Below, piece by piece: positions 8,688-34,553 of a stretch of 64,000 nt of DNA (its first letter is position 1; the number at the start of each line of letters is the position of its first letter). Both the position numbers and the translations under genes were made by a program. Source of the DNA: Desulfogranum japonicum DSM 18378. Lineage in GTDB: Bacteria; Desulfobacterota; Desulfobulbia; Desulfobulbales; Desulfobulbaceae. The DNA lies in the NCBI RefSeq assembly GCF_000429945.1, contig NZ_AUCV01000005.1, positions 1 through 64,000 on the forward strand. The letters are read 5' to 3'. The notes beneath the pieces were generated by a model that made no database searches, was not told where the DNA came from, and was given only the letters and a program-made list of their open reading frames with translations.

Positions 8688-9650
8688 TTAAGCCTTAGTG
8701 AGATATTTGAGACTATCTTTTTCAAGTAGCGATTTAATATCCTGTGATGGAGGCGATCCGAACAGGCGGCTATATTCACGGCTGAATTGTGAAGGGCTGG
8801 CATAGCCAACTTGAAATGCCGCAGTTGTCGCGTCCATTTGTTCCATAAACATTATTTTTCTTGCTTCATTGAGTCGCAGTCTTTTCTGAAATTGTAACGG
8901 ACTCATAGCGGTCATCGCACGGAAGTGTTGATGAAGACTTGAAGAACTCATGCCGGTGTAAGCGGCCAGGTCATCAATTTTGATGGTCTTATCGTAATTT
9001 TCTTTCAGCCACCCAATCGCCCGTGCAATCAGTTGGCTATGACTGCCAATCATTGAAATCTGCCGAAGACGCTGTCCCTGTTCACTTGTAAGAAGACGAT
9101 ATAGTATTTCTCTTTGTATGAGAGGTGCAAGAACTGGGATATCCTCAGGATGATCAAGCAATTCCAATAAGCGTAGTATAGCTCGAAGTATCGGGACTGA
9201 AAGCTGGCTAACAAGCATCCCTCGATCTGTAACAGCCGATTCTGTTGATGTTGTCGGGATCTCATTTTCCAACATCATCTGAGCAATTATTTTTCTCTCT
9301 AATTTTAATGTGATTCCCAGGTATGGTCGCTGTGGGCTGGCATCAAATATTTCCGCTAACAGGGGGAGATCTATGGATGTCAAAAGATAATGATGCTCAT
9401 CATAGATATATTCATCTTCACCAAGTACAACACGTTTGCGACCCTGGGCTACCAGGCAAAGGCTTGGTTCCTGCATATAGCCGGTTCTTTCCAGGGGTTC
9501 TTCCTGCCTGAAGAGAAACAGCGAAGGGTATGCCGTGGTCGGGTTGCCTCGATTATCCCGTGTTAAACGGTGCATTTTTTCAATGAGTGAAAGCTGGAGG
9601 GTGTCAAGACTGTGAAGGTCTTGCTCTAATGTTTGGTTATAGGTCTTCAT
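8688..9650 (-). CDS. AraC-family regulator with N-terminal AraC_N domain (paralog 1)
   Basis: A 320-residue regulator. Residues about 35-195 are the cupin-like AraC_N domain (TTAYPSLFLFRQEEP, GYMQEPSLCLVAQGRKRVVLG, YLLTSIDLPL). Two helix-turn-helix motifs follow at about 220-310: IKIDDLAAYTGMSSSSLHQHFR and TTAAFQVGYASPSQFSREYSRLFG. Such regulators usually activate nearby aldehyde or quinone reductases. The closest neighbours are qorB and a porin-like gene, but a direct target cannot be read from sequence. A close paralog lies at 31329. GAGGTGA precedes the start. Confidence 0.88.
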   Translation of the reverse strand: MKTYNQTLEQDLHSLDTLQLSLIEKMHRLTRDNRGNPTTAYPSLFLFRQEEPLERTGYMQEPSLCLVAQGRKRVVLGEDEYIYDEHHYLLTSIDLPLLAEIFDASPQRPYLGITLKLERKIIAQMMLENEIPTTSTESAVTDRGMLVSQLSVPILRAILRLLELLDHPEDIPVLAPLIQREILYRLLTSEQGQRLRQISMIGSHSQLIARAIGWLKENYDKTIKIDDLAAYTGMSSSSLHQHFRAMTAMSPLQFQKRLRLNEARKIMFMEQMDATTAAFQVGYASPSQFSREYSRLFGSPPSQDIKSLLEKDSLKYLTKA

Positions 9651-23842: not shown

Positions 23843-24232
23843 ATGATAATCAAAGGAGGACCTTCAGCATATTTAGCCAGTATCTGGTTACTTGCGATGG
23901 TGTTGGTAAATCCAGCTTATATATCTGCAGACTGCCTTAAAGACAGATATGGAGAGGCGTATTGTGGTGCCGGGCGATGTCTGGCCGATAGTAACGGTAT
24001 AGTTTGGTGCTCTCGTCACTTTGATGGTGATGCAGAGCGTACTTCCGACGGCCAGGTGCTTTGTGGCAAGGGGCATTGCGCGAAACGCAGTGATGGTTTA
24101 GTGTTCTGTTCAACAGAGGCTGGTGGCGCTGTCCTGTTAGACAGTAGCGGGCATGTACGTTGTTACGGCCAGTGTGAGCCCGCTACCATAGAAATGTGTG
24201 AACATACTCGAGCCGGTAGCTCAAACAAATAA
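23843..24232 (+). CDS. secreted Cys-rich repeat protein
   Basis: A 129-residue protein with a signal peptide (SIWLLAMVLVNPAYISA). The mature part has about eleven Cys arranged in imperfect repeats: YCGAGRCLADSNGIVWCS, then LCGKGHCAKRSDGLVFCS, then VRCYGQCEP. The unit is roughly DG.V.CG.G.C....DG.V.CS. Such a pattern suggests disulfides or metal binding in the periplasm. I recall similar uncharacterised proteins in Proteobacteria but can give no function. ATG 23843 is chosen because the upstream 21 codons of the open frame lie in the repeat element. Confidence 0.65.
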   Translation: MIIKGGPSAYLASIWLLAMVLVNPAYISADCLKDRYGEAYCGAGRCLADSNGIVWCSRHFDGDAERTSDGQVLCGKGHCAKRSDGLVFCSTEAGGAVLLDSSGHVRCYGQCEPATIEMCEHTRAGSSNK

Positions 24233-24360
24233 AAAATTCAGGCGGTCAGGTTCAGTTCCAGGTAAAAATGGAGTCCTGCTTGAATCTTCGTATGAAAATG
24301 CACCAGGTAAACTGGTGATTTTAGCGTTTTGTATACAAATAAAGCAATAGAGTACAGAAA

Positions 24361-24951
24361 ATGAAAATATCAGTAATACTCGCTCATCCAGATCCTTCTA
24401 GCTTTAATCATGCTATAGCCAATACAACCATTGAGGTGTTACGGCAAAATGGTCATGAAGTAGCCTTCCACGATCTATATAAAGAGCGCTTTGACCCATG
24501 TCTTCCAGCTGCAGAAATTGCAAAAGATGCACTTCTGCCTTCTGAAATTCAACGGCATTGTCAGGAAGCTTCAGAAGCAGACGGCTTCGTTATCATTCAT
24601 CCTAACTGGTGGGGCATGCCACCTGCGATTCTTAAAGGTTGGGTTGACAGGATTATGCGACCAGGAGTTACCTATGAATTTTTGGAAAATGACGGTGGCG
24701 AGGGGGTACCTAACGGTTTGTTAAAAGCAACAAAGGCTATTGTGTTTAATACATCCAACACAGAGACAGATCGTGAAATGAATACTTTCCTGGACCCTCT
24801 TGAAACCATTTGGAAAAACTGCATTTTTGACCTGTGTGGAGTTCGTGATTTCCATCGAAGAATGTTTAATATCATTGTAACGAGCACGGTGGAACAAAGA
24901 GAAATTTGGCTCAATGAAGTAAAGGAAACAGTCTCTACGAGTTTTTGTTAA
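24361..24951 (+). CDS. NQO1/KefF-like NAD(P)H oxidoreductase
   Basis: A 196-residue flavodoxin-fold enzyme (Flavodoxin_2). FMN- or FAD-binding is shown by VILAHPDPSSFNHAIAN at the start, and PNWWGMPPAILKGWVDRI near 80 matches the Y/W-x-x-PA motif of quinone reductases. The middle TKAIVFNTSNTE is the usual third loop. It should reduce quinones or other electrophiles using NAD(P)H in the cytoplasm. Its TAA stop is also the first base triplet of a family-2 repeat. Confidence 0.85.
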   Translation: MKISVILAHPDPSSFNHAIANTTIEVLRQNGHEVAFHDLYKERFDPCLPAAEIAKDALLPSEIQRHCQEASEADGFVIIHPNWWGMPPAILKGWVDRIMRPGVTYEFLENDGGEGVPNGLLKATKAIVFNTSNTETDREMNTFLDPLETIWKNCIFDLCGVRDFHRRMFNIIVTSTVEQREIWLNEVKETVSTSFC

Positions 24952-25041
24952 CTCGTGCCTGTCCATAAATGACTTTCTCGGAATCTTATACCTCGTTTAC
25001 CTGCTTTCAAATGAAAATCTTTAATTTGGGTCAGGCACTCA
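24949..25041 (+). repeat. family-2 repeat, copy b
   Basis: TAACTCGTGCCTGTCCATAA starts on the stop codon of the NQO-like gene; the right end GGGTCAGGCACTCA is a decayed inverted copy. The interior (GACTTTCTCGGAATCTTATACC) matches copy c at 48475. Confidence 0.75.
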
Positions 25042-25080
25042 CTGACAAAAAACTATCTGATATACCTACCAAATACTAGT

Positions 25081-27600
25081 ATGCAACTGCCCGATCTTCC
25101 CATTCGTGCAAGTTTGCCTGCCTTAAAAAAGGCTCTCACAGAAGGATCTGCCGTATTGGCCGCTCCTCCTGGATCAGGCAAAACTACCATTGTGCCTTTG
25201 GCACTTCTTGCAGAACCTTGGCTTGCCGGGAAAAAGATCCTTATTCTTGAACCACGGAGACTTGCCGCACGGGCTGCTGCAGGCAGAATGTCTTCTCTGA
25301 GAAATGAACAAGTTGGAGAAACTGTAGGGTATCAGATTCGTTTTGACAGGCAAGTTTCAGAGGCTACCCGTATTGAAGTGGTTACTGAAGGCATTTTAAC
25401 AAGAAGATTGCAGGCTGATCCCGACTTGTCAGATGTGGGACTCGTTATCTTTGATGAATTTCATGAGCGTTCAATTCATACAGATCTGGCCTTGGCACTT
25501 TGTCTTGATATCTCACAACTGAAGGAAGACTTGCGACTGTTGATTATGTCCGCAACCATGGATACTGTTCCCATTGCTGAGCTTCTCGGTGACGTGCCCA
25601 TTATTACAGGGACGGGACAAAGCCATGAGGTAACCATTGAATATCTGGACCGGGAACCACGGGGCCATATCAGCGACACAACCACTGCAGGGATCTGCAG
25701 GGTGCTGTCTAAGCATAAAGGGGATGTATTGGTCTTCCTCCCTGGAATTGGAGAGATCCGAGGAGTAGAACGAACCCTTCGCAACGAAATCCAGGATCAG
25801 GATTTGTTCATTCTGCCACTGTACGGCAACCTGACCCAGGAGGATCAATATCGCGCAATACTGCCCGATGCAAGCGGTAAGAGACGAGTGATTCTGGCCA
25901 CCTCCATTGCCGAGACAAGTCTGACCATTGAAGGCATTACTCTTGTAGTTGACAGCGGTTGGTCACGCAGGGCGCAATTTGAAGAAGCGTGCGGTCTCAG
26001 CCGGCTGGTAACTGTAAGAGTATCAAAAGCGACTGCTGATCAGCGTGCAGGGAGGGCAGGGCGCCTTGCTCCCGGACATTGTTTTCGTCTATGGACCAGG
26101 AAAGAGCATTATAGCTTCCCACCTTTTCATCCTCCGGAAATTGTTACCGCAGATCTTTCCCCTTTAGCCTTGGAACTCGCCCTGTGGGGAGTCCATGATC
26201 CTTTGGAACTGCAATGGATCAATCCTCCCCGTGCTGGTGGTTATGCCCAGGCCATTGCGCTGCTGCAGACCCTTGAGGCTGTTGACGGGTCAGGCCGTAT
26301 TACTCCCGCTGGACGCCAGATGGCCAGCTTACCCGTGCACCCCCGGCTCAGCCATATGCTCATTCAAGCGAAAAAAAATGGCCAGGGTGCATTGGCATGT
26401 GATATCGCAGCCCTGGTTTCGGAACGAGATATATTGCAACGTGGCATTACCAATAGCACTGCTGAGATCAGTGTCCGTTGGCAGCTCCTGCAACTATGGC
26501 GAAAAAAGGGCAATACTGCCGTCCAGCGGGAAGGAGGAGACCCCAAATCCTGTCGTCTGGTTGACAGGGCCGCCAAAATATTCCGGAGCGCCATCAACGT
26601 GAAATTCAGCCCCGGTGATGAACAGGAAATCGGTCATCTTCTGGTCAATGCTTATCCTGACCGGGTTGCCAGGAGAAGAATGGGAAGTCGACAGAGATAT
26701 CAACTGGCCAACGGCAGGGGAGCAGCTCTATTGCCAGAAGATCCTTTGACTGCAAGTGAATATGTAGTTGTATCCAATCTCGATGCAGGCAGGCAAGAGG
26801 GACGAATTCATCTCGCTGAGGCAATTGATATTTCAATACTGCAGCAGCAACACAGCAGTATTTTTATCAGGAAACGTGAGGTTACCTGGGACGATGCTGC
26901 TAAAAGGGTAGCAGCACAGAATCTTCTCTGTCTCGGTGAGATTATTGTTGAAGAAAAACCATTGTCAGACCTGAGGGCTGAAGAAATGGTCGGGGCAATG
27001 CTCGATGGCATTCGACAGAACGGATTGGAGTGTCTCCCCTGGGACAGGGAAACGCGACAACTGCAAGCTCGTGTTACTTGCCTGCGCCAGTGGCAACCAC
27101 AGCAAAATTGGCCAGATTTGAGTTCCAATACCTTAATTGACGATCTTGGCTGGCTTGAACCCTACCTTGGTGGAGTGAATCGCTTAGAGCAGCTTAAACA
27201 GATTAAGCTACTGGATGTTTTTAATACTATGCTTGGGTGGGAAAAACAGCAGCAGTTAGCTCGAGAGGCGCCTGCAAAGATTTTGGTACCAAGTGGATCC
27301 AATCTGCGTTTGGATTATCTCTCAGGGGAATTGCCTGTACTTGCGGTCCGTATCCAGGAAATGTTTGGTTGCACCGACACACCTACTGTTTGCGGTGGCC
27401 AGGTTACTGTCTTGCTTCATCTGTTGTCTCCTGCAGGACGCCCCGTCCAGGTAACTTCGGACCTGGCCAGCTTTTGGCAACGGAGTTATCCAGAAGTTAA
27501 AAAGGAGTTAAAGGGCCGCTATCCAAAACATTTCTGGCCCGATAATCCGTTGGAAACACCTCCCACTCGGCGGACAAAACCAAGAAAGAAGAATAGGTAA
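25081..27600 (+). CDS. hrpB: ATP-dependent RNA helicase HrpB
   Basis: An 839-residue DEAH-box helicase. Walker A is APPGSGKTT (28-36), Walker B FDEFHERS, motif III SATMD, motif V AETSLTI and motif VI QRAGRAGR. The following HA2-like and HrpB C-terminal regions (RPVQVTSDLASFW, GRYPKHFWPDNPLE) identify HrpB rather than HrpA. Its role in bacterial RNA metabolism is not firmly known. The length fits the family. The TAA stop is the first triplet of a family-1 repeat, so the native 3' end may have been trimmed or replaced; the conserved WPDNPLE motif is intact. Confidence 0.92.
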   Translation: MQLPDLPIRASLPALKKALTEGSAVLAAPPGSGKTTIVPLALLAEPWLAGKKILILEPRRLAARAAAGRMSSLRNEQVGETVGYQIRFDRQVSEATRIEVVTEGILTRRLQADPDLSDVGLVIFDEFHERSIHTDLALALCLDISQLKEDLRLLIMSATMDTVPIAELLGDVPIITGTGQSHEVTIEYLDREPRGHISDTTTAGICRVLSKHKGDVLVFLPGIGEIRGVERTLRNEIQDQDLFILPLYGNLTQEDQYRAILPDASGKRRVILATSIAETSLTIEGITLVVDSGWSRRAQFEEACGLSRLVTVRVSKATADQRAGRAGRLAPGHCFRLWTRKEHYSFPPFHPPEIVTADLSPLALELALWGVHDPLELQWINPPRAGGYAQAIALLQTLEAVDGSGRITPAGRQMASLPVHPRLSHMLIQAKKNGQGALACDIAALVSERDILQRGITNSTAEISVRWQLLQLWRKKGNTAVQREGGDPKSCRLVDRAAKIFRSAINVKFSPGDEQEIGHLLVNAYPDRVARRRMGSRQRYQLANGRGAALLPEDPLTASEYVVVSNLDAGRQEGRIHLAEAIDISILQQQHSSIFIRKREVTWDDAAKRVAAQNLLCLGEIIVEEKPLSDLRAEEMVGAMLDGIRQNGLECLPWDRETRQLQARVTCLRQWQPQQNWPDLSSNTLIDDLGWLEPYLGGVNRLEQLKQIKLLDVFNTMLGWEKQQQLAREAPAKILVPSGSNLRLDYLSGELPVLAVRIQEMFGCTDTPTVCGGQVTVLLHLLSPAGRPVQVTSDLASFWQRSYPEVKKELKGRYPKHFWPDNPLETPPTRRTKPRKKNR

Positions 27601-27754
27601 CTGCTCACAGCGCACCTGATCATTCCGCGATCAGCCTGGCTTATGTATGACTCAATACGCTGCACCAGCCTGCTTGCGAAAACCTCAGGCACACTGTAAC
27701 CAGTTACAAATATGGGAGATATTCAAGCTTATTCGTATCTCCTGTGAGTAGTTA
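27598..27754 (+). repeat. family-1 MITE-like repeat, full copy E
   Basis: The repeat starts TAACTGCTCACAGCGCACCT at the hrpB stop codon and ends CCTGTGAGTAGTTA just before the molybdopterin oxidoreductase gene. It is 157 bases, the same size as copy A, and matches it throughout, including the CTGTAACCAGTTAC core. Confidence 0.85.
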
Positions 27755-27781
27755 CATCCGGGCTAAGTTTGCATGGTTATT

Positions 27782-29992
27782 TTATGACCCTGAAGTGGAA
27801 GTACTGTTCTCCACCTCTTTTTCTACGCGACACAACAAGGCAGAATGTGGCCAGCTGCCTATTTCCGGACTGCAAAATTCAGGATCATCCGGACAGAGAA
27901 CATTCGCGTTTGATTCAAAAACGCCAAAAAGTTCCGGAAGTTTCGGGTCACGCTCGGGGAACCACCAGGAATGTTGTATGTCAACCATCTTGGGATGCAT
28001 TACATCCGTAATTTTTACCCGCTGGCGTATCGAGCCAAGCGGCGTGGAGATCACGGCCCAGTCGCCTTCGGTCAATCCTAACTTTTCAGCTGTTGAAGGA
28101 TGTATTGAGACCAAAGGATCCGGTACTTTCTGGCGTGCCTTTTCGATTTGCCGCTGTTCTGATTGATACATGGGCATGAAGCGGCTTCCTGTGATGAGGA
28201 TGAGCGGATATTCCTCTGCCAGCTGCGGATTTCCCACTGGGCTCCACACAGGCTCATGGTATTGAGGAAGAGGGGCTGCGCCCAGTTCTTCAAAAATTGA
28301 GGATTTCAGCTCAACCTTACCCGAAGGAGTGCCGAATCCGAACTGTTCGTAGCGGCGATATTCCTTTTTGCCAAAAACACCGTACTGGTCCACCAGTTGC
28401 TTGAATGTCAAGCCAACCGGTTCCAAAGCGTGGTCATATACTTCTTCGATATTTTCCCAGGGCCAATATTCTTTCTGGCCCAACCGCATACCAAGCCCGC
28501 GGTAAAAGTCATAACTGTTACGCCGCTCAAATATTGGCTCAATACCCTGCGGGCAGGCCATGCAAAATCCCCCGGTCAGCCAGAGCTCAGAGGTTTCCAC
28601 AGTTGAAGCTGCCGGAAAAACATAGTCAGCCATCGCTGCAGACGGGGTCATGTAGTAATCCACAACCATATAAAGCTGCAGTGCCTGCAGAGCCTCAAAT
28701 ACTTTTTTCGTATTGGGCAGGGCTAGAAGCGGGTTGTTTGCCAGTGTTATTGCAGCTGTTACCGGATAGGGCTTGCCGGTAATAATAGCGTCCATAACCT
28801 CTCTGGCATGTGCCAGGTTGGAATGCCAGGCCTCAGGGGCGGCCATGTATCCTTCTGGTAGTTTCTTGTTTGCGGCCGTGTTTTTTTCCCACCCGGGGAA
28901 GCCGAAAAATGGATATTTGTCCACGCCAAGCTGCTTGGCTTTTTGATGCTCCGGCATCATGTCGTTGAGCTCAAAATATTCCCAATCCCTGATTTTTCCT
29001 ATATCACCGGCAAGGGAAAAGACCTCGCCTCCAGGGATTTCCAGGTTGCCGGTAATGGCTCGGATAATTGCCCGGCCCCTTGCACATTGCGTGGCATTGA
29101 CGCCCTGTTTATCCAGACCAAGTCCGAAAGGAATTACTGCCGGGCCGTTTGTGGCATACATTCTTGCCGATTGTTGAATAAGATCAACAGGCACGCCAGT
29201 GATCTCTGCAACCTTTTCCGGAGTATAGCTCTCAACCGCATCTTGTAATTCATCAAAACCAATGGTCCAGCGGGATACAAATTCATGGTCATACAGATCC
29301 TCAGCAATAATCAGGCGAATCCAGCCTAGCATTAAAGCGAGGTCCGTGCCCGGCCTAATCTGCAGCCATAAATCTGCCTTTTCTGCCTCTCTGGTTCTTC
29401 TGGGATCAATGATTATCAGTTTGGCCCCTTTTTTTCGAGCTGCAAGAATTTTAGGATAGAGATTAATCGGATTTGATTGTGACGCATTACAACCCCATAG
29501 AACAATGCATTTGGCAGCAGGTACTTCGCTGCCCATAATCATGCCGCCATAGGTCGCAAATTCCGTGGCATAGCTTGGGCACATGCAGATAGTATTTACT
29601 CCGCAGGTGTTGGGAGAACCGAAGAGATTGAAAAAGCGGCGGCAATCCCAGTGGTATGTTCGTTTGGTCCCGTGGGTAAAGGCGAGTGTCTCGGCCCCGT
29701 ATGTATCCCTTAAATGTGAGAGTTTTTCAGCTACCTCATCCAGTGCCTGTTCCCAGGATATCTGTTGCCAGCGGCCTTCTCCTTTTTCACCAACTCTCTT
29801 TAAAGGATGATTCAGTCGTTGCGGATGATAGAGGTGATCCCGCATCAGCCGGCCACGTTCGCAGATGACTCCTCGGGTGATTGGATGATCCGGATCGCCG
29901 GTTACTTTTACAACCTTGTCGTTTTCAATATGCAACAGGGTTCCACATCGCGGGTGGCAAAGACCACAATAGCTTCTACGAATTTCTTTCAT
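27782..29992 (-). CDS. single-subunit molybdopterin oxidoreductase (DMSO-reductase family, acetylene-hydratase-like)
   Basis: A 736-residue Mo/W-bisMGD enzyme. The [4Fe-4S] ligands Cys9, Cys12, Cys16 and Cys44 are present; the metal is probably bound by Cys in NTICMCPSYATEF. Further marks are WGCNASQSNP, IIIDPRRTREAEKADLWL, RPGTDLAL and the molydopterin-binding C-terminal domain (LILITGSRFMPMY). No Tat signal is seen, so it acts in the cytoplasm. The layout resembles acetylene hydratase and related CoA or aldehyde enzymes; there is no partner Fe-S or membrane subunit next to it. It is divergent from a TetR gene with paired palindromes between, indicating ligand-induced expression. GGAGA precedes ATG. 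Confidence 0.85.
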   Translation of the reverse strand: MKEIRRSYCGLCHPRCGTLLHIENDKVVKVTGDPDHPITRGVICERGRLMRDHLYHPQRLNHPLKRVGEKGEGRWQQISWEQALDEVAEKLSHLRDTYGAETLAFTHGTKRTYHWDCRRFFNLFGSPNTCGVNTICMCPSYATEFATYGGMIMGSEVPAAKCIVLWGCNASQSNPINLYPKILAARKKGAKLIIIDPRRTREAEKADLWLQIRPGTDLALMLGWIRLIIAEDLYDHEFVSRWTIGFDELQDAVESYTPEKVAEITGVPVDLIQQSARMYATNGPAVIPFGLGLDKQGVNATQCARGRAIIRAITGNLEIPGGEVFSLAGDIGKIRDWEYFELNDMMPEHQKAKQLGVDKYPFFGFPGWEKNTAANKKLPEGYMAAPEAWHSNLAHAREVMDAIITGKPYPVTAAITLANNPLLALPNTKKVFEALQALQLYMVVDYYMTPSAAMADYVFPAASTVETSELWLTGGFCMACPQGIEPIFERRNSYDFYRGLGMRLGQKEYWPWENIEEVYDHALEPVGLTFKQLVDQYGVFGKKEYRRYEQFGFGTPSGKVELKSSIFEELGAAPLPQYHEPVWSPVGNPQLAEEYPLILITGSRFMPMYQSEQRQIEKARQKVPDPLVSIHPSTAEKLGLTEGDWAVISTPLGSIRQRVKITDVMHPKMVDIQHSWWFPERDPKLPELFGVFESNANVLCPDDPEFCSPEIGSWPHSALLCRVEKEVENSTSTSGS

Positions 29993-30184
29993 GTGTGTCT
30001 CCAGACTTGGTTGAGAATAGTACGTTTTCTGCCCCTTGGCTTATGGATCGACCAATCTCTATGGGAGTATTTTATTATACAACTCAGCAGGGTATTCCCG
30101 TTCATCAAAAAGAGGAAGTAGCAACTGTGTATGCAGATACATGTTTTTTACATGCTGTTATACTGTTTTCTTATCGCGATATAG

Positions 30185-30213
30185 TATTTCACATATGATG
30201 CAATGTATGTCAA
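30185..30213 (-). promoter_or_regulatory. minus-strand promoter of molybdopterin oxidoreductase
   Basis: On the minus strand TTGACA (30213-30208) is a perfect -35 box, followed after 17 bases by GAAATA (30190-30185) or slightly later TACTAT as a -10 box. It points toward the oxidoreductase start at 29992, leaving about 190 bases of 5' leader. Confidence 0.45.
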
Positions 30214-30217
30214 AATA

Positions 30218-30251
30218 GACTGGCAGTCAATTTTAAATCGACTATGAGTCG
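30218..30251. promoter_or_regulatory. paired palindromes, likely TetR operator
   Basis: GACTGGCAGTC (30218-30228) and CGACTATGAGTCG (30239-30251) are two perfect short palindromes, 21 bases apart from start to start, that share GACT/AGTC half sites. They sit between the divergent oxidoreductase and TetR genes and beside the minus-strand -35 box. Two helical turns of spacing suit two repressor dimers. Confidence 0.6.
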
Positions 30252-30305
30252 AAAAAGCTTTTTAGGCACACCGGGGCTCTCCGAACAGGGACCAAGAGGA
30301 TAAAC

Positions 30306-30947
30306 ATGAAAAAATCCACTACCGTTGCAACTCAATCTGGCCAAAAGAATACTCGTCGAATCGGTGCACCATCAGGACCGAGAAGGTCGGATCAAAGACG
30401 GGCAACGTTAATAGAAGCTGCAGGCAAGCTCTTTGTTGAGCAGGGCTACGAGGCGACCACCATGGATGAAATCGCTGCTGCCGCCAATGTGGCAAAAGGC
30501 ACACTGTATCATTATTTTTCAAACAAAGCTGAATTGCTTCAAGTCTTAAGGGAAGGTTTTGAATCAGAAGTTATGAAACGTATTCGTTCACGTGTAGATA
30601 TGTGTCATGATGATGATTGGCGAGGTCGTATCAAAGCGTGGATAGATGGAGCCGTTAATGCCTACTTTGCAATGCAGGAGCTTCATGACATAGTTATCTA
30701 CAGTACTGGCATGCCATTTCGCAACGCAATGGCGGATGCTGAAATAACCAGATATCTTGCTCAGTTGATTCGTGATGGCGTCCAGGCAGGAGCCTGGAAG
30801 GTTGATGATGAGCACTGGACTGCTGTGGTCATGTTTTACAGCTTTCGGGGCGGTTGCGATGAAGCCATAATAGGAGCCCAGCGCCCGGAAGATATTCCGG
30901 AAAAGCTGAATACATTATTTTTAAAAATACTAGATGTAACTACGTGA
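30306..30947 (+). CDS. TetR-family regulator
   Basis: A 213-residue TetR protein. A basic N-terminus is followed by the helix-turn-helix at about 28-75: FVEQGYEATTMDEIAAAANV then KGTLYHYFSNKAELLQ. The ligand domain is not assignable. The gene is divergent from the molybdopterin oxidoreductase (314 bases between starts) and the interval holds twin palindromes, so it most likely represses that enzyme and itself. AAGAGGA lies before ATG 30306. Confidence 0.85.
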   Translation: MKKSTTVATQSGQKNTRRIGAPSGPRRSDQRRATLIEAAGKLFVEQGYEATTMDEIAAAANVAKGTLYHYFSNKAELLQVLREGFESEVMKRIRSRVDMCHDDDWRGRIKAWIDGAVNAYFAMQELHDIVIYSTGMPFRNAMADAEITRYLAQLIRDGVQAGAWKVDDEHWTAVVMFYSFRGGCDEAIIGAQRPEDIPEKLNTLFLKILDVTT

Positions 30948-31328
30948 AGGTTGGTTGCCCCATGATGCCATAGAGGCAGTAATGAGTATTTTCCGGCAAA
31001 TATAAAGACTCCTTTATACTTTGTGATGTGCTTTTTCTTTCTGTCTACGTCTGGGCTGGGGATATTGTCAAAGTAGCTGGCTACTGGTAAAAGATATCCG
31101 TCCTTGACGATATATCGTCCAGTTTTTTCACATTAACTTCATAGAATCGGTTGCCATGTTTAAATCTCAAATTGTCAGAGGCAGTTCTTGTACTTATAAT
31201 CAATCAAGCGGCTTCAAATTTGCTTAATTGATCCTCCACAGCCCTTGCCTGATTTTCCAGGAATACATTGGTTTGCAAAAGATCATCGTTTGATTCATAT
31301 GTGAGAAATTTTCAAAAGGAGGGATGTT
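30948..31328. other. intergenic region before araC paralog 2
   Basis: About 380 bases, AT-rich, no gene supported on either strand. GACGATATATCGTC at about 31106-31119 is a perfect 14-base palindrome and could be an operator. Confidence 0.4.
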
Positions 31329-32261
31329 ATGAGTTCTGAAAGTACAATGTCAGAGCAGGATGAGCGTACTCTGGCCGCCTCACTTGCTACTTTAACAGAA
31401 CGACTGGACCATCTCACCTTAGCTCAGCGAAATGAGCCAACCACAGCATATTCTGCCTTGTCTATTTACCGGCAGGAAGAGCCTACTGAGTTGACCAGTT
31501 ATATGCAGGAACCAAGCATTTGTCTGATCGCGCAGGGGAATAAACGCGTCGTACTTGGTGAAGAAGAGTATGTGTATGATCAGCACCATTACCTGGTAAC
31601 ATCAATAGATTTACCATTGGTGGCACAGATCATGGAAGCAAGCAGGGAAAAGCCTTATTTGGGATTGGTACTGAATTTGGAAAGGAAAATCATAGCCCAG
31701 ATGATGTTGAATAACGATATCTCGATTAACCGCTCCCCATCTGCTGATCGATGTATCGGGGTGAGCAAGATATCCCTGCCGGTTGTACAGGCTATTCTGC
31801 GTTTGCTTGATCTGCTTGAGCACCCTGATGATATTCCCATCCTTGCCCCTCTTATTCAGAGGGAGATTTTATATCGTCTGCTCACAGGCGAGCAGGGACA
31901 GCGTTTACTGCAGATTGCAATGCTTGGAAGTCACAGTAGCCAAATAGCGCGTGCAATTGACTGGTTGAAGGAAAACTACGACAGAACCATTAAAATAGAT
32001 GATCTTGCCGCCTACACAGGGATGAGCACGTCAAGTCTTCATCATCATTTCCGGGCAATGACAGCTATGACGCCGTTGCAGTTTCAGAAGAGGCTGCGCC
32101 TGAACGAGGCCAGGCAACTCATGCTTATGGAACAGAAAGATGCTACTACAGCAGCTTTTGAGGTTGGTTATGAAAGCCCTTCGCAGTTCAGTCGTGAATA
32201 CAGCCGTCTGTTCGGAGCCCCTCCTTCCCGGGATATAAAAAGACTGCTTGAAGCAACATAA
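31329..32261 (+). CDS. AraC-family regulator with AraC_N domain (paralog 2)
   Basis: This 310-residue protein is a close relative of the AraC gene at 8688: TTAYSALSIYRQEEP, YMQEPSICLIAQGNKRVVLG, then AIDWLKENYDRTIKIDDLAA and EVGYESPSQFSREYSRLFGAPP. The cupin-like part would bind an aldehyde or similar effector and the two helix-turn-helix motifs bind DNA. It faces the minus-strand Fe-ADH operon (32436-36351), which is its likely target. AAAGGAGGG precedes ATG. The stop codon TAA is the first triplet of a family-1 repeat. Confidence 0.88.
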   Translation: MSSESTMSEQDERTLAASLATLTERLDHLTLAQRNEPTTAYSALSIYRQEEPTELTSYMQEPSICLIAQGNKRVVLGEEEYVYDQHHYLVTSIDLPLVAQIMEASREKPYLGLVLNLERKIIAQMMLNNDISINRSPSADRCIGVSKISLPVVQAILRLLDLLEHPDDIPILAPLIQREILYRLLTGEQGQRLLQIAMLGSHSSQIARAIDWLKENYDRTIKIDDLAAYTGMSTSSLHHHFRAMTAMTPLQFQKRLRLNEARQLMLMEQKDATTAAFEVGYESPSQFSREYSRLFGAPPSRDIKRLLEAT

Positions 32262-32325
32262 CTGGTTGCAGTGCACCTGATCTTACCGCGATCAGCCTGG
32301 CTTATGTCTCCCCTATGAGTAGTTG
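32259..32325 (+). repeat. family-1 repeat, internally deleted copy F
   Basis: TAACTGGTTGCAGTGCACCT through GATCAGCCTGGCTTATGT matches the left part of copies A and E, then jumps to CTCCCCTATGAGTAGTTG, the right end. About 90 central bases are missing. It begins on the araC stop codon. Confidence 0.8.
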
Positions 32326-32388
32326 CGAAGCAACGCCACAATAATAGCTGATATCATTCGCAGCTTATCTCATCTTAGTATTGCTCGT

Positions 32389-32421
32389 CACCTCTTTTCT
32401 TTTTTGGGAAGAAAAGAGGTG
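32389..32421. terminator. perfect 13-bp hairpin downstream of flavodoxin gene
   Basis: CACCTCTTTTCTT pairs with AAGAAAAGAGGTG around TTTTGGG. It lies 15 bases beyond the end of the minus-strand FMN reductase gene and between converging genes, so it probably ends both messages. Confidence 0.65.
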
Positions 32422-32435
32422 ATGCAACGTATGCG

Positions 32436-32969
32436 CTACGCATTTTTCCCCATGGTATACGCTTCGCTCATGGCATTGGTATTTTTTACCTTGCCAGCGT
32501 CCCAAATACCGGTAACAGAGATTGTTCCTTTTTCAACAACATCCAGACAGTCTGTGAAAGTTCTGAAGCTTTGAAAAGTGCTTTCTACTGGCAGGCTTCC
32601 TCCGGCAGCGGAAGCGATAAAATATACGTCTGTATTGTGGATCATAGGATACGCAGGGCAGACTCGATCGATGAAGGTTTTCATCTGCCCATTAAAGGAA
32701 CGAAAATAGACAGGGCTGGCCAATACCAGAATATCTGCGGCAACTATTTTGGTCAGGATTTCATTCATATCGTCCTGCTGGACACATGCTCCGGGTTTAC
32801 CGATGCAGGTGCAGCATCCTGTACAATAGTTGATGTTTTTTTCTGATAATCGTATTTTTTCCACACTGTGGCCGGCATCCCAGGCGCCTTTCCTGAATTC
32901 GTCACATAATATGTCTGAATTACCGTTCTTTCTTGGGGTAGATGATAGTATTAGTATTTTTTTGCTCAT
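32436..32969 (-). CDS. flavodoxin-fold FMN reductase with CxxC...C motif
   Basis: A 177-residue NADPH-dependent FMN reductase-like protein. The FMN loop is SSTPRKNGNSDILCDEF (9-25), followed by YCTGCCTCIGKPGACVQQDDM, a Cys-rich segment typical of this anaerobe subfamily that may hold a metal or cluster, and VLASPVYFRSFNGQMKTFIDRV. It probably moves electrons to flavins or quinones. It is the last gene of the minus-strand Fe-ADH group but a palindromic repeat separates it from the cyclophilin-like gene. Confidence 0.8.
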   Translation of the reverse strand: MSKKILILSSTPRKNGNSDILCDEFRKGAWDAGHSVEKIRLSEKNINYCTGCCTCIGKPGACVQQDDMNEILTKIVAADILVLASPVYFRSFNGQMKTFIDRVCPAYPMIHNTDVYFIASAAGGSLPVESTFQSFRTFTDCLDVVEKGTISVTGIWDAGKVKNTNAMSEAYTMGKNA

Positions 32970-33019
32970 GATATTTTTTATGCGCTTGCCAACAAAAATC
33001 AGCCATTCTTTTTAATACG

Positions 33020-33092
33020 GTACGTATGACGCACCCTACCTTTCGCATGGACCCGAACCGTAGGGTGCGCGTCACACGCACCATCAAAATTA
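33020..33092 (+). repeat. dispersed intergenic repeat, copy 2 (GTAGGGTGCG type)
   Basis: GACGCACCCTAC (33029-33040) and GTAGGGTGCGCGTC (33060-33073) form a strong hairpin; the right half TTTCGCATGGAC..ACGCACCATCAAAATTA repeats 2669-2717. It lies between two minus-strand genes and could protect or end the upstream message. Confidence 0.75.
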
Positions 33093-33096
33093 CTTG

Positions 33097-33459
33097 TTAT
33101 TGCAGAGTAATGGTGACAGAGATCTGTTCATCAAGAGTATCCATTATTGAAGGCTGAACAGTTATTTTGCCGAGTGTCACCATATTGCCGTACTGTTGTG
33201 AAATCTCTTCATCCTTATAGAGGATGGCAAAATAGTTGCCATCTGCCGCAAATGCGAGATCTCCATTTGACCATCCGTTACGCAGCTCACTTTGGTTATA
33301 GGAAAGGGCTTTCATCACACCGCAGTAGTCATGCGCATACCTCTGAAGTTTCACTGTATAAGGGAGCATGTCTATAAGTTCTTTGGACGGAGTACTGTCG
33401 TTCAAGACTGCAGGGATTACCGCTTCTCCGATGGTCAAGAGTATTTCTGTTTTATTCAT
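33097..33459 (-). CDS. cyclophilin-like fold protein
   Basis: A 120-residue single-domain protein with the Cyclophil_like pattern: LPYTVKLQRYAHDYCGVMKA, then GWSNGDLAFAADGNYFAILY and MVTLGKI. The fold is that of cyclophilin but these bacterial proteins lack clear prolyl isomerase residues, and their function is unknown. They often sit in AraC-controlled clusters with Fe-ADH and flavodoxin genes, as here. The gap to the hydrolase gene upstream is 11 bases, so they share a message. Confidence 0.75.
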   Translation of the reverse strand: MNKTEILLTIGEAVIPAVLNDSTPSKELIDMLPYTVKLQRYAHDYCGVMKALSYNQSELRNGWSNGDLAFAADGNYFAILYKDEEISQQYGNMVTLGKITVQPSIMDTLDEQISVTITLQ

Positions 33460-33470
33460 TTTGTTTCTTC

Positions 33471-34514
33471 TTATTTCAAAGACTCCTGGAAAAAAGAGGT
33501 GATTTTGTCAAACGGGATCATATCCACTCTGTCATACAGATCAATGTGTCTGGCGCCGGGAACAATAACGAGTTCTTTGGGTTCGGCGGCCATTTCATAT
33601 GCATCTTCCGTAAAGTATCTTGAGTGAGCATTCTCGCCCATGATGAACAGAATAGGTCTTGGTGAAATTGATTGAATATAGCTCAACAAAGGAAAATTCA
33701 TGAAAGCCATATTGCTTGTCAGTGTAAATGGGCCGTGTGACCGTGGGTGGTGACCACGGGCCATTCCATAATATTCGAAGAACTCGCTTGAAATAGGGTC
33801 TAATCCTTCGGGAATGGAAGCAGCCGCTTCTTCTGGGAATCCTGGAGGTAAGAATGGACTACCGTTTTCGAAATCCTTCCAGCGTTGCTCTCCAAGCTGG
33901 TCAAGGGTTTTGTTGCGCTGTTCATCGGTCATTCCGTCTTTCCATCCGTTACGGATTACACGGCTCATATCATACATACTCACCGTGGTAACGGCCTTGA
34001 TACGGTGATCAACCTGTGCCGCGGTAAGGGAGAATGCGCCGCTGCCACAGATGCCAATCACACCAATTTTATTTTTGTCAACAAATGGGCGTGTCCCGAG
34101 AAAATCAACTCCGGCACTGAAATCTTCAACAAAAATTTCTGGAGATGATACGTGTCTTGGCTCTCCGCTGCTTTCTCCATTGAAAGATTCATCAAAGGCA
34201 ATGGTAATAAAACCCCTCTCTACCAGGGTTTGTGCGTAAATGCCTGCTCCCTGCTCTTTCACACCGCCATAAGGGGTACCTACAACAATGGCTGCATATT
34301 TTTTTGATGTATCTATATCTTTTGGCAGATACATATCTGCAGCTATGGTGATTCCGTATCTATTGGGATAGGCAACTTTTTCGTGGACGACCTTTTCACT
34401 TTTCGCAAAGGTTTTATCCCATGCGGCATCTTCTGCCCAGGTAACACCGGTTATGAATACAAGCGTACTCATCACTAGTATTATCGAGATTGTATGGAAC
34501 AAATTTGTTTTCAT
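33471..34514 (-). CDS. exported alpha/beta hydrolase with Cys in nucleophile position
   Basis: A 347-residue secreted hydrolase. The signal peptide is MKTNLFHTISIILVMS..GVTWA. The nucleophile elbow is IGVIGICGSGAFS: by the GxCxG reading, Cys rather than Ser would be the nucleophile, as in dienelactone hydrolase and YcjY-like proteins. FDESFNGESSGEPRHVSSPE and a late His in GARHIDLYDR complete the site. Substrates are unknown. ATG 34514 is preferred to 34526 because GGAG lies seven bases before it, inside the longer frame. It belongs to the Fe-ADH operon. Confidence 0.78.
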   Translation of the reverse strand: MKTNLFHTISIILVMSTLVFITGVTWAEDAAWDKTFAKSEKVVHEKVAYPNRYGITIAADMYLPKDIDTSKKYAAIVVGTPYGGVKEQGAGIYAQTLVERGFITIAFDESFNGESSGEPRHVSSPEIFVEDFSAGVDFLGTRPFVDKNKIGVIGICGSGAFSLTAAQVDHRIKAVTTVSMYDMSRVIRNGWKDGMTDEQRNKTLDQLGEQRWKDFENGSPFLPPGFPEEAAASIPEGLDPISSEFFEYYGMARGHHPRSHGPFTLTSNMAFMNFPLLSYIQSISPRPILFIMGENAHSRYFTEDAYEMAAEPKELVIVPGARHIDLYDRVDMIPFDKITSFFQESLK

Positions 34515-34553
34515 GTTCGTCTCCATTTTTAAAATTATATTCCCCGCGTGTCT

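Follow-up and report, generated by a model that had tools for sequence, protein, structure and literature searches.

The 64,000-nucleotide stretch of Desulfogranum japonicum DSM 18378 analyzed here (contig NZ_AUCV01000005.1, positions 1 to 64,000; hereafter the window) carries a gene for a single-subunit molybdenum or tungsten enzyme of 736 amino acids (27782-29992, minus strand) and, divergent from it, a gene for a TetR-family regulator of 213 amino acids (30306-30947, plus strand). Both open reading frames are intact. The enzyme was found to belong to the branch that holds acetylene hydratase and catechol dehydroxylase-type proteins, and the regulator gene, together with a pair of palindromes, is conserved beside the enzyme gene in related loci. 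Our preferred interpretation, to which we give about an even chance, is that of an enzyme induced by its substrate, a small phenolic or unsaturated compound from which it removes, or on which it moves, a hydroxyl group.

Pfam detected the Fe4S4, molybdopterin and dinucleotide-binding domains (PF04879, PF00384 and PF01568) in this order and all above their cut-offs, which places the protein in the dimethyl sulfoxide (DMSO) reductase superfamily (MopB) of bis-molybdopterin guanine dinucleotide (bis-MGD) enzymes. In the alignment to acetylene hydratase (2E7Z) its Cys9, Cys12, Cys16 and Cys44 correspond to the Fe-S cysteines 9, 12, 16 and 46 of that enzyme, and Cys136 corresponds to the metal ligand Cys141. 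Other residues of interest are His13, Arg46, Cys138 and Arg604. Eight residues precede the first Fe-S cysteine, and upstream of the start the frame stays open for another 16 codons (752 against 736). This room is too short for a twin-arginine translocation (Tat) signal, and the enzyme of the window therefore lacks one. The original prediction, made from the window alone, had described an orphan cytoplasmic enzyme without a Tat signal, resembling acetylene hydratase and with a cysteine at the likely metal-ligand position, and these data agree with it. In the host genome (5.8 Mb, 124 contigs) the second-best stretch scored 186 bits, against 1758 for the enzyme gene itself.

The best match among solved structures was acetylene hydratase, with 445 bits; polysulfide reductase (2VPW) scored 276 bits. 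The AlphaFold2 model of the enzyme, with a predicted local distance difference test score (pLDDT) of 91.1, could be superimposed on 2E7Z with a TM-score of 0.92, a Z score of 47.1 and a root-mean-square deviation of 1.9 over 713 residues, the Z score for 2VPW being 35.7. Pairwise identity was 41% to two small enzymes of Gordonibacter pamelaeae (L068 and L127), 35.5% to acetylene hydratase and 30% to 2VPW. Pyrogallol-phloroglucinol transhydroxylase (PGTL) matched with 35.5 bits, in residues 186-328 only, against the 445 bits of acetylene hydratase, and was thus ruled out as the closest solved relative.

Relatives were the best 80 of at least 555 stretches related to the enzyme at E ≤ 1e-3 in a genome scan. 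Among the matches listed are close ones in Desulfosarcina widdelii, in strain NaphS2 and, at 83%, in Desulfobulbus rhabdoformis; D. widdelii and D. rhabdoformis DSM 8777 are named strains with members of the query's own clade. A relative at E ≤ 1e-250 was present in seven of 395 genomes drawn from the phylum, that of D. japonicum included, and the distribution of the gene is therefore patchy. Support values quoted below are from a careful tree of 44 rows unless a quick tree of 108 rows is named. The sulfate-reducer clade that holds the query received 100/100 (10 rows). It was part of a 27-row clade (100/99) with acetylene hydratase, proteins of Chloroflexota and archaea, and the small Gordonibacter enzymes, and polysulfide reductase types (2VPW) fell outside a wider 38-row group (99/99). 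Like small Gordonibacter-type catechol dehydroxylases, then, the query groups with acetylene hydratase and not with other bis-MGD enzymes. Catechol dehydroxylase-type proteins are its closest relatives with a proposed activity, which had not been foreseen. Counts of 31 clade members given below stand for the query and 30 loci. L020 represents another family and was excluded from these counts; L047, a partial gene under the coverage limit, is in no protein count, and the partial gene L046 was left out of the trees, as were the own-genome matches L007, L008, L010, L011 and L014 (duplicates or poor coverage). The NCBI label Myxococcota carried by some 'Deltaproteobacteria' metagenome-assembled genomes was not relied on.

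The protein could in principle be a thiosulfate, polysulfide or arsenate reductase stripped of its partners. The enzyme is matched by 27 NCBIfam models and, among the 25 matches listed, all are below their cut-offs, the highest being thiosulfate reductase PhsA with 319 bits (cut-off 694). Forcing the clade together with 2VPW and two relatives made the tree 48.7 log units worse and was rejected by the approximately unbiased (AU) test (p = 0.0035); this result, with the PhsA score, ruled out a polysulfide or thiosulfate reductase. Arsenate reductase, absent from the trees as is pyrogallol transhydroxylase, was judged by score alone: the ArrA model gave 89 bits against a cut-off of 1600. The query also has neither Tat signal nor Fe-S partner, and a reductase of this kind appears highly improbable. 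Firm grouping with such reductases had been named at the outset as the result that would overturn the assignment; for the polysulfide and thiosulfate type the tree rejects it.

The active site was compared across the clade. None of the 31 members has lost the Fe-S cysteines or the ligand cysteine. On the other hand, all 31 have His in place of Asp13 of acetylene hydratase and Arg in place of Lys48, 28 have Pro in place of Trp179, and positions 14, 113 and 142 are likewise changed. According to a review (PMC12096430), substitution of Asp13 with Ala abolishes acetylene hydratase activity. The query is the nearest to 2E7Z in both sequence and structure, keeps its cysteines, and can be forced into a clade with acetylene hydratase and L132 at a cost of 11.2 log units (p = 0.088, not rejected), so that the tree neither demonstrates nor rules out a specific sister relationship between the two. 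Nevertheless, because the catalytic Asp13 is replaced throughout the clade, and with other site residues altered at 35.5% identity, a true acetylene hydratase is very improbable. The suggestion of a new cytoplasmic hydratase, reductase or hydroxylase thus holds as regards the compartment and the acetylene hydratase branch, but not as regards acetylene hydration as such. Among the other relatives compared, Asp13 is kept in L132 alone. This gene (L132:4679-6940, from a Gordonibacter pamelaeae genome) groups with 2E7Z at 100/100 and, judged from its sequence, could encode an acetylene hydratase-like enzyme of a gut bacterium.

Two further features mark the site. A second cysteine two residues past the ligand (CxC; Cys138 in the query) is common to all 31 clade members, as CMC in 30 and CFC in one. 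Elsewhere it was found in two of three small Gordonibacter enzymes (L068 and L071) and in 3 of 66 other relatives. The motif SExRQ occurs in 30 of 31 clade members (the partial gene L046 being the one without it) and in 8 of 10 Gordonibacter genes; it was not found in acetylene hydratase, 2VPW or three Escherichia coli references. The presence of Cys138 suggested a sulfur transfer of the kind proposed for metallopterin-dependent ergothioneine synthase (MES), in which this cysteine would take a persulfide next to the metal. For MES, an acetylene hydratase-like module has been proposed to transfer sulfur by way of a Mo-sulfido ligand (PMC9516567). MES has a C-terminal cysteine desulfurase and co-occurs with EgtD. 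Pfam found no desulfurase domain in the 736-residue protein or in 30 annotated neighbouring proteins, and no EgtD-type methyltransferase (PF10017) was detected in the genome, the control search being positive in 2 of 14 named genomes. The presence of Cys138 throughout the clade speaks for such a reaction, yet with these components missing we regard it as improbable.

The lack of partner subunits, also foreseen, extends to the clade loci with enough flank. No ferredoxin-motif frame of at least 45 codons overlapped positions 24000-33500 of the window, and none was found within 2 kb of the enzyme gene in any of the 25 clade loci whose flank reached 2.5 kb or more (0/25). The same 2-kb scan was positive for 6 of 10 Gordonibacter genes and 15 of 50 other relatives; such a frame directly adjoins L068, L127 and several others, and none was found near L071. 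A wider 3-kb scan gave one frame, in L136, where it adjoins a different molybdoenzyme gene. Two papers (PMC7028382, PMC12771579) describe soluble catechol dehydroxylases as lacking a Tat signal and having a small 4Fe-4S protein alongside, which is the arrangement at L068 and L127; no such neighbour was seen in the query clade. We infer from gene arrangement, similarity and these papers that L068 and L127, and also L071, are catechol dehydroxylases; the tree rows include no record named as an experimentally tested dehydroxylase.

A twin-arginine motif before the first Fe-S cysteine was not found in 25 of the 30 other clade loci, one of which (L030) has no standard start codon in front of that cysteine. 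The remaining five (L033-L037) have a clear Tat-like signal, for example TRRKFL followed by a hydrophobic stretch, and form one branch with support of 100 in the quick 108-row tree. This exported sub-branch, which had not been anticipated, is also partnerless at loci with flanks covered. Since the signal is confined to L033-L037, this family of molybdoenzymes without partners would have acquired or lost export in the course of its history and, from these sequences, seems to be present in both compartments. The occurrence of the same partnerless enzyme on both sides of the membrane suggests that electrons come from general carriers or that none are transferred.

The divergent regulator has an N-terminal helix-turn-helix domain (Pfam TetR_N, 72.5 bits). 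Matches in the PDB were distant, mostly to the DNA-binding half, the best with 61 bits. By neighbourhood blastp and alignment, orthologs with 58-72% identity, likewise divergent from the enzyme gene, were identified in 5 of 30 clade loci (L021, L022, L025, L026 and L045), which are five of the eight loci at 76% identity or more. Between the two genes of the window lie the palindromes GACTGGCAGTC (30218-30228) and GACTATGAGTC (30240-30250), putative operator halves that are 22 bp apart and the sole GACYNNNRGTC sites in the 64-kb window. Exactly the same distance separates the twin sites in all five TetR-bearing loci, one copy in L045 having one mismatch. When 99 upstream regions were scanned, 94 of them with at least 400 bp upstream of the open frame, the 22-bp pair was found in the five TetR-bearing loci and in none of the other 94. 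Two sites appeared in 0 of 3000 dinucleotide shuffles of each intergenic region, a result that is descriptive because the motif was derived from those same sequences. Independent support comes from the fact that the pair tracks TetR and sits in otherwise poorly alignable DNA. The divergent TetR and twin palindromes of the original prediction are thus real, and form a conserved pair with the enzyme gene in five related loci; binding of TetR to these putative operators is predicted from sequence.

With up to three mismatches allowed, the double site occurs once in the 5.8-Mb genome. Single sites numbered 18, against 46 in a reversed control, and for this reason we claim no regulon; with the double site unique and single sites not in excess, the arrangement resembles a switch with a single target. 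A putative promoter of the enzyme gene (30202-30230, minus strand; 9 of 12 consensus bases) consists of a -35 box TTGACT, a 17-bp spacer and a -10 box TACATT. TTGAC(T/C) is kept in six of six loci, and a -10 box with at least four of six bases at 17 bp in five of six. The promoter is a consensus match only, the scanned region having 9 promoter-like sites as against 5.6 in shuffles. Its -35 box overlaps operator half 1, and on this ground TetR would act as a repressor.

Taken together, the data could be explained as follows. The enzyme would be a cytoplasmic, single-subunit Mo/W-bis-MGD protein, an accessory gene product of scattered sulfate reducers. A dedicated TetR would bind the two 22-bp-spaced palindromes overlapping the enzyme promoter and repress both genes. 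The inducer would be a small compound, phenolic or unsaturated and probably identical or related to the substrate; it would release TetR, and the enzyme would then be made. The metal, molybdenum or tungsten, would be held by Cys136, and His13, Cys138 and Arg604 may line the site, as they stand at alignment positions that do so in acetylene hydratase. The reaction would most likely be removal or transfer of a hydroxyl group at the metal, with any electrons supplied by general carriers and not by a dedicated subunit. His13, Arg46 and SExRQ, the last found in 8 of 10 Gordonibacter genes, are shared with dehydroxylase-type relatives and favour reduction.

Several observations weigh against this interpretation. 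His13 (50 of 66), Arg46 (34 of 66) and SExRQ (38 of 59) are also frequent in other relatives, most of them without known function, and therefore do not single out dehydroxylases. The 44-row tree gives no settled branching order among the query clade, acetylene hydratase and the small Gordonibacter enzymes, and the forced clade with acetylene hydratase and L132 is tolerated. Of the 30 clade loci, 25 showed no TetR ortholog, with 900 bp or more of upstream DNA covered in 27 of the 30. Inducibility and a defined small-molecule substrate, which the original prediction drew from the presence of a TetR repressor, are features that we too infer; no ligand was found. No neighbour gene is common to most clade loci, and the neighbours vary by genome and indicate no pathway. 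Finally, dehydroxylation needs electrons, and the missing dedicated carrier favours a redox-neutral reaction, which fits at least as well. The enzyme could then be a hydratase, transhydroxylase or isomerase acting on a substrate other than acetylene, with the reduced metal as a Lewis acid, a role proposed for it in some models of acetylene hydratase. The absence of an electron partner from all 25 clade loci, when the same scan finds one in relatives, agrees with this, as do the partnerless Tat-exported sub-branch and the closest solved fold, that of a non-redox enzyme. However, Asp13 and mostly Trp179 of that enzyme are replaced, and His13, Arg46 and SExRQ are common to relatives adjoining a ferredoxin-like gene. 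We regard a redox-neutral reaction as possible but doubtful. A bolder proposal, tentative and rather unlikely, is that CxC and His13 set the clade apart as an enzyme class of its own, devoid of an electron partner and distributed between the cytoplasm and a Tat-bearing periplasmic branch. Within the acetylene hydratase branch it would be a second enzyme of redox-neutral type, catalyzing hydroxyl or sulfur transfer on the inducing phenolic or unsaturated compound.

Thirty neighbouring proteins of the sulfate-reducer loci L021-L045 were scanned in Pfam for substrate clues. L021 and L033 have E1 dehydrogenase genes close to the enzyme gene. A DUF169-type gene (assigned by clustering, with the name from a Pfam scan of the L023 protein) adjoins it or is one gene off in L023, L028, L029 and L032, all without TetR. 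A MarR gene is upstream in L023 and L028, a flavodoxin-like gene is present in L029, and a resistance-nodulation-division (RND) pump in L037. In the window itself two AraC regulators (31329-32261, with an AraC_N domain, and 8688-9650) are 71% identical to each other, and a 61% relative of them directly adjoins the enzyme gene in L028. An alpha/beta-hydrolase-like gene (33471-34526) is located 2.5 kb from TetR; its 69-74% relative adjoins the enzyme gene in D. rhabdoformis (L045:3364-6810), where a gene for an IS66 transposase apparently interrupts it.

A more distant relative (about 39% over the alignment) was seen in the same bacterial family (L018:522-5102, L019 and L020). In L018 it is placed among glycosyltransferase and sugar-transferase genes recognized by Pfam, and the sugar-transferase cluster recurs in L019 and L020; such surroundings are unusual for a molybdoenzyme. 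In the 3.6-Mb genome of G. pamelaeae behind L068, 55 stretches match the enzyme at E ≤ 1e-40; several of them can belong to one gene, but this is a very large expansion of such enzymes.

The wider enzyme group is already known, and homologs in Desulfobacula and other degraders are named in an eLife paper (PMC7028382). In two papers on anaerobic benzene degradation, acetylene hydratase appears among the references alone. The sulfate-reducer clade, its CxC motif and its TetR switch appear to be new: no description was found in literature searches that covered few subscription papers. Few activities are known in this branch, though relatives are common. The pairing of a single enzyme gene with a dedicated regulator and a defined candidate operator offers an unusually direct handle, as TetR could be used to seek the inducer and hence the substrate. 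The partnerless, TetR-controlled enzyme is thus a testable lead for new anaerobic chemistry.

Among known systems, acetylene hydratase of Syntrophotalea (Pelobacter) acetylenica resembles the enzyme in being a single subunit without a signal peptide, of equal length and fold, with Fe4S4 and, by alignment, a Cys-ligated bis-MGD site. It differs in that the query has His13, Arg for Lys48, Pro for Trp179, the extra Cys138, and SExRQ. PsrA and PhsA have the superfamily fold and a Cys ligand in common with it; they belong to a separate clade, and the query is without their partner subunits and Tat signal. MES (PMC9516567) shares the acetylene hydratase-like module and the Cys ligand, whereas the query is without the desulfurase domain and its genome without EgtD. 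The small (Dodh/Cldh-type) Gordonibacter catechol dehydroxylases are about 41% identical to the query, are reported to be without a Tat signal, and share His13, Arg46 and, in two of the three compared, CxC; however, L068 and L127 adjoin a small 4Fe-4S gene, and no locus of the query clade does.

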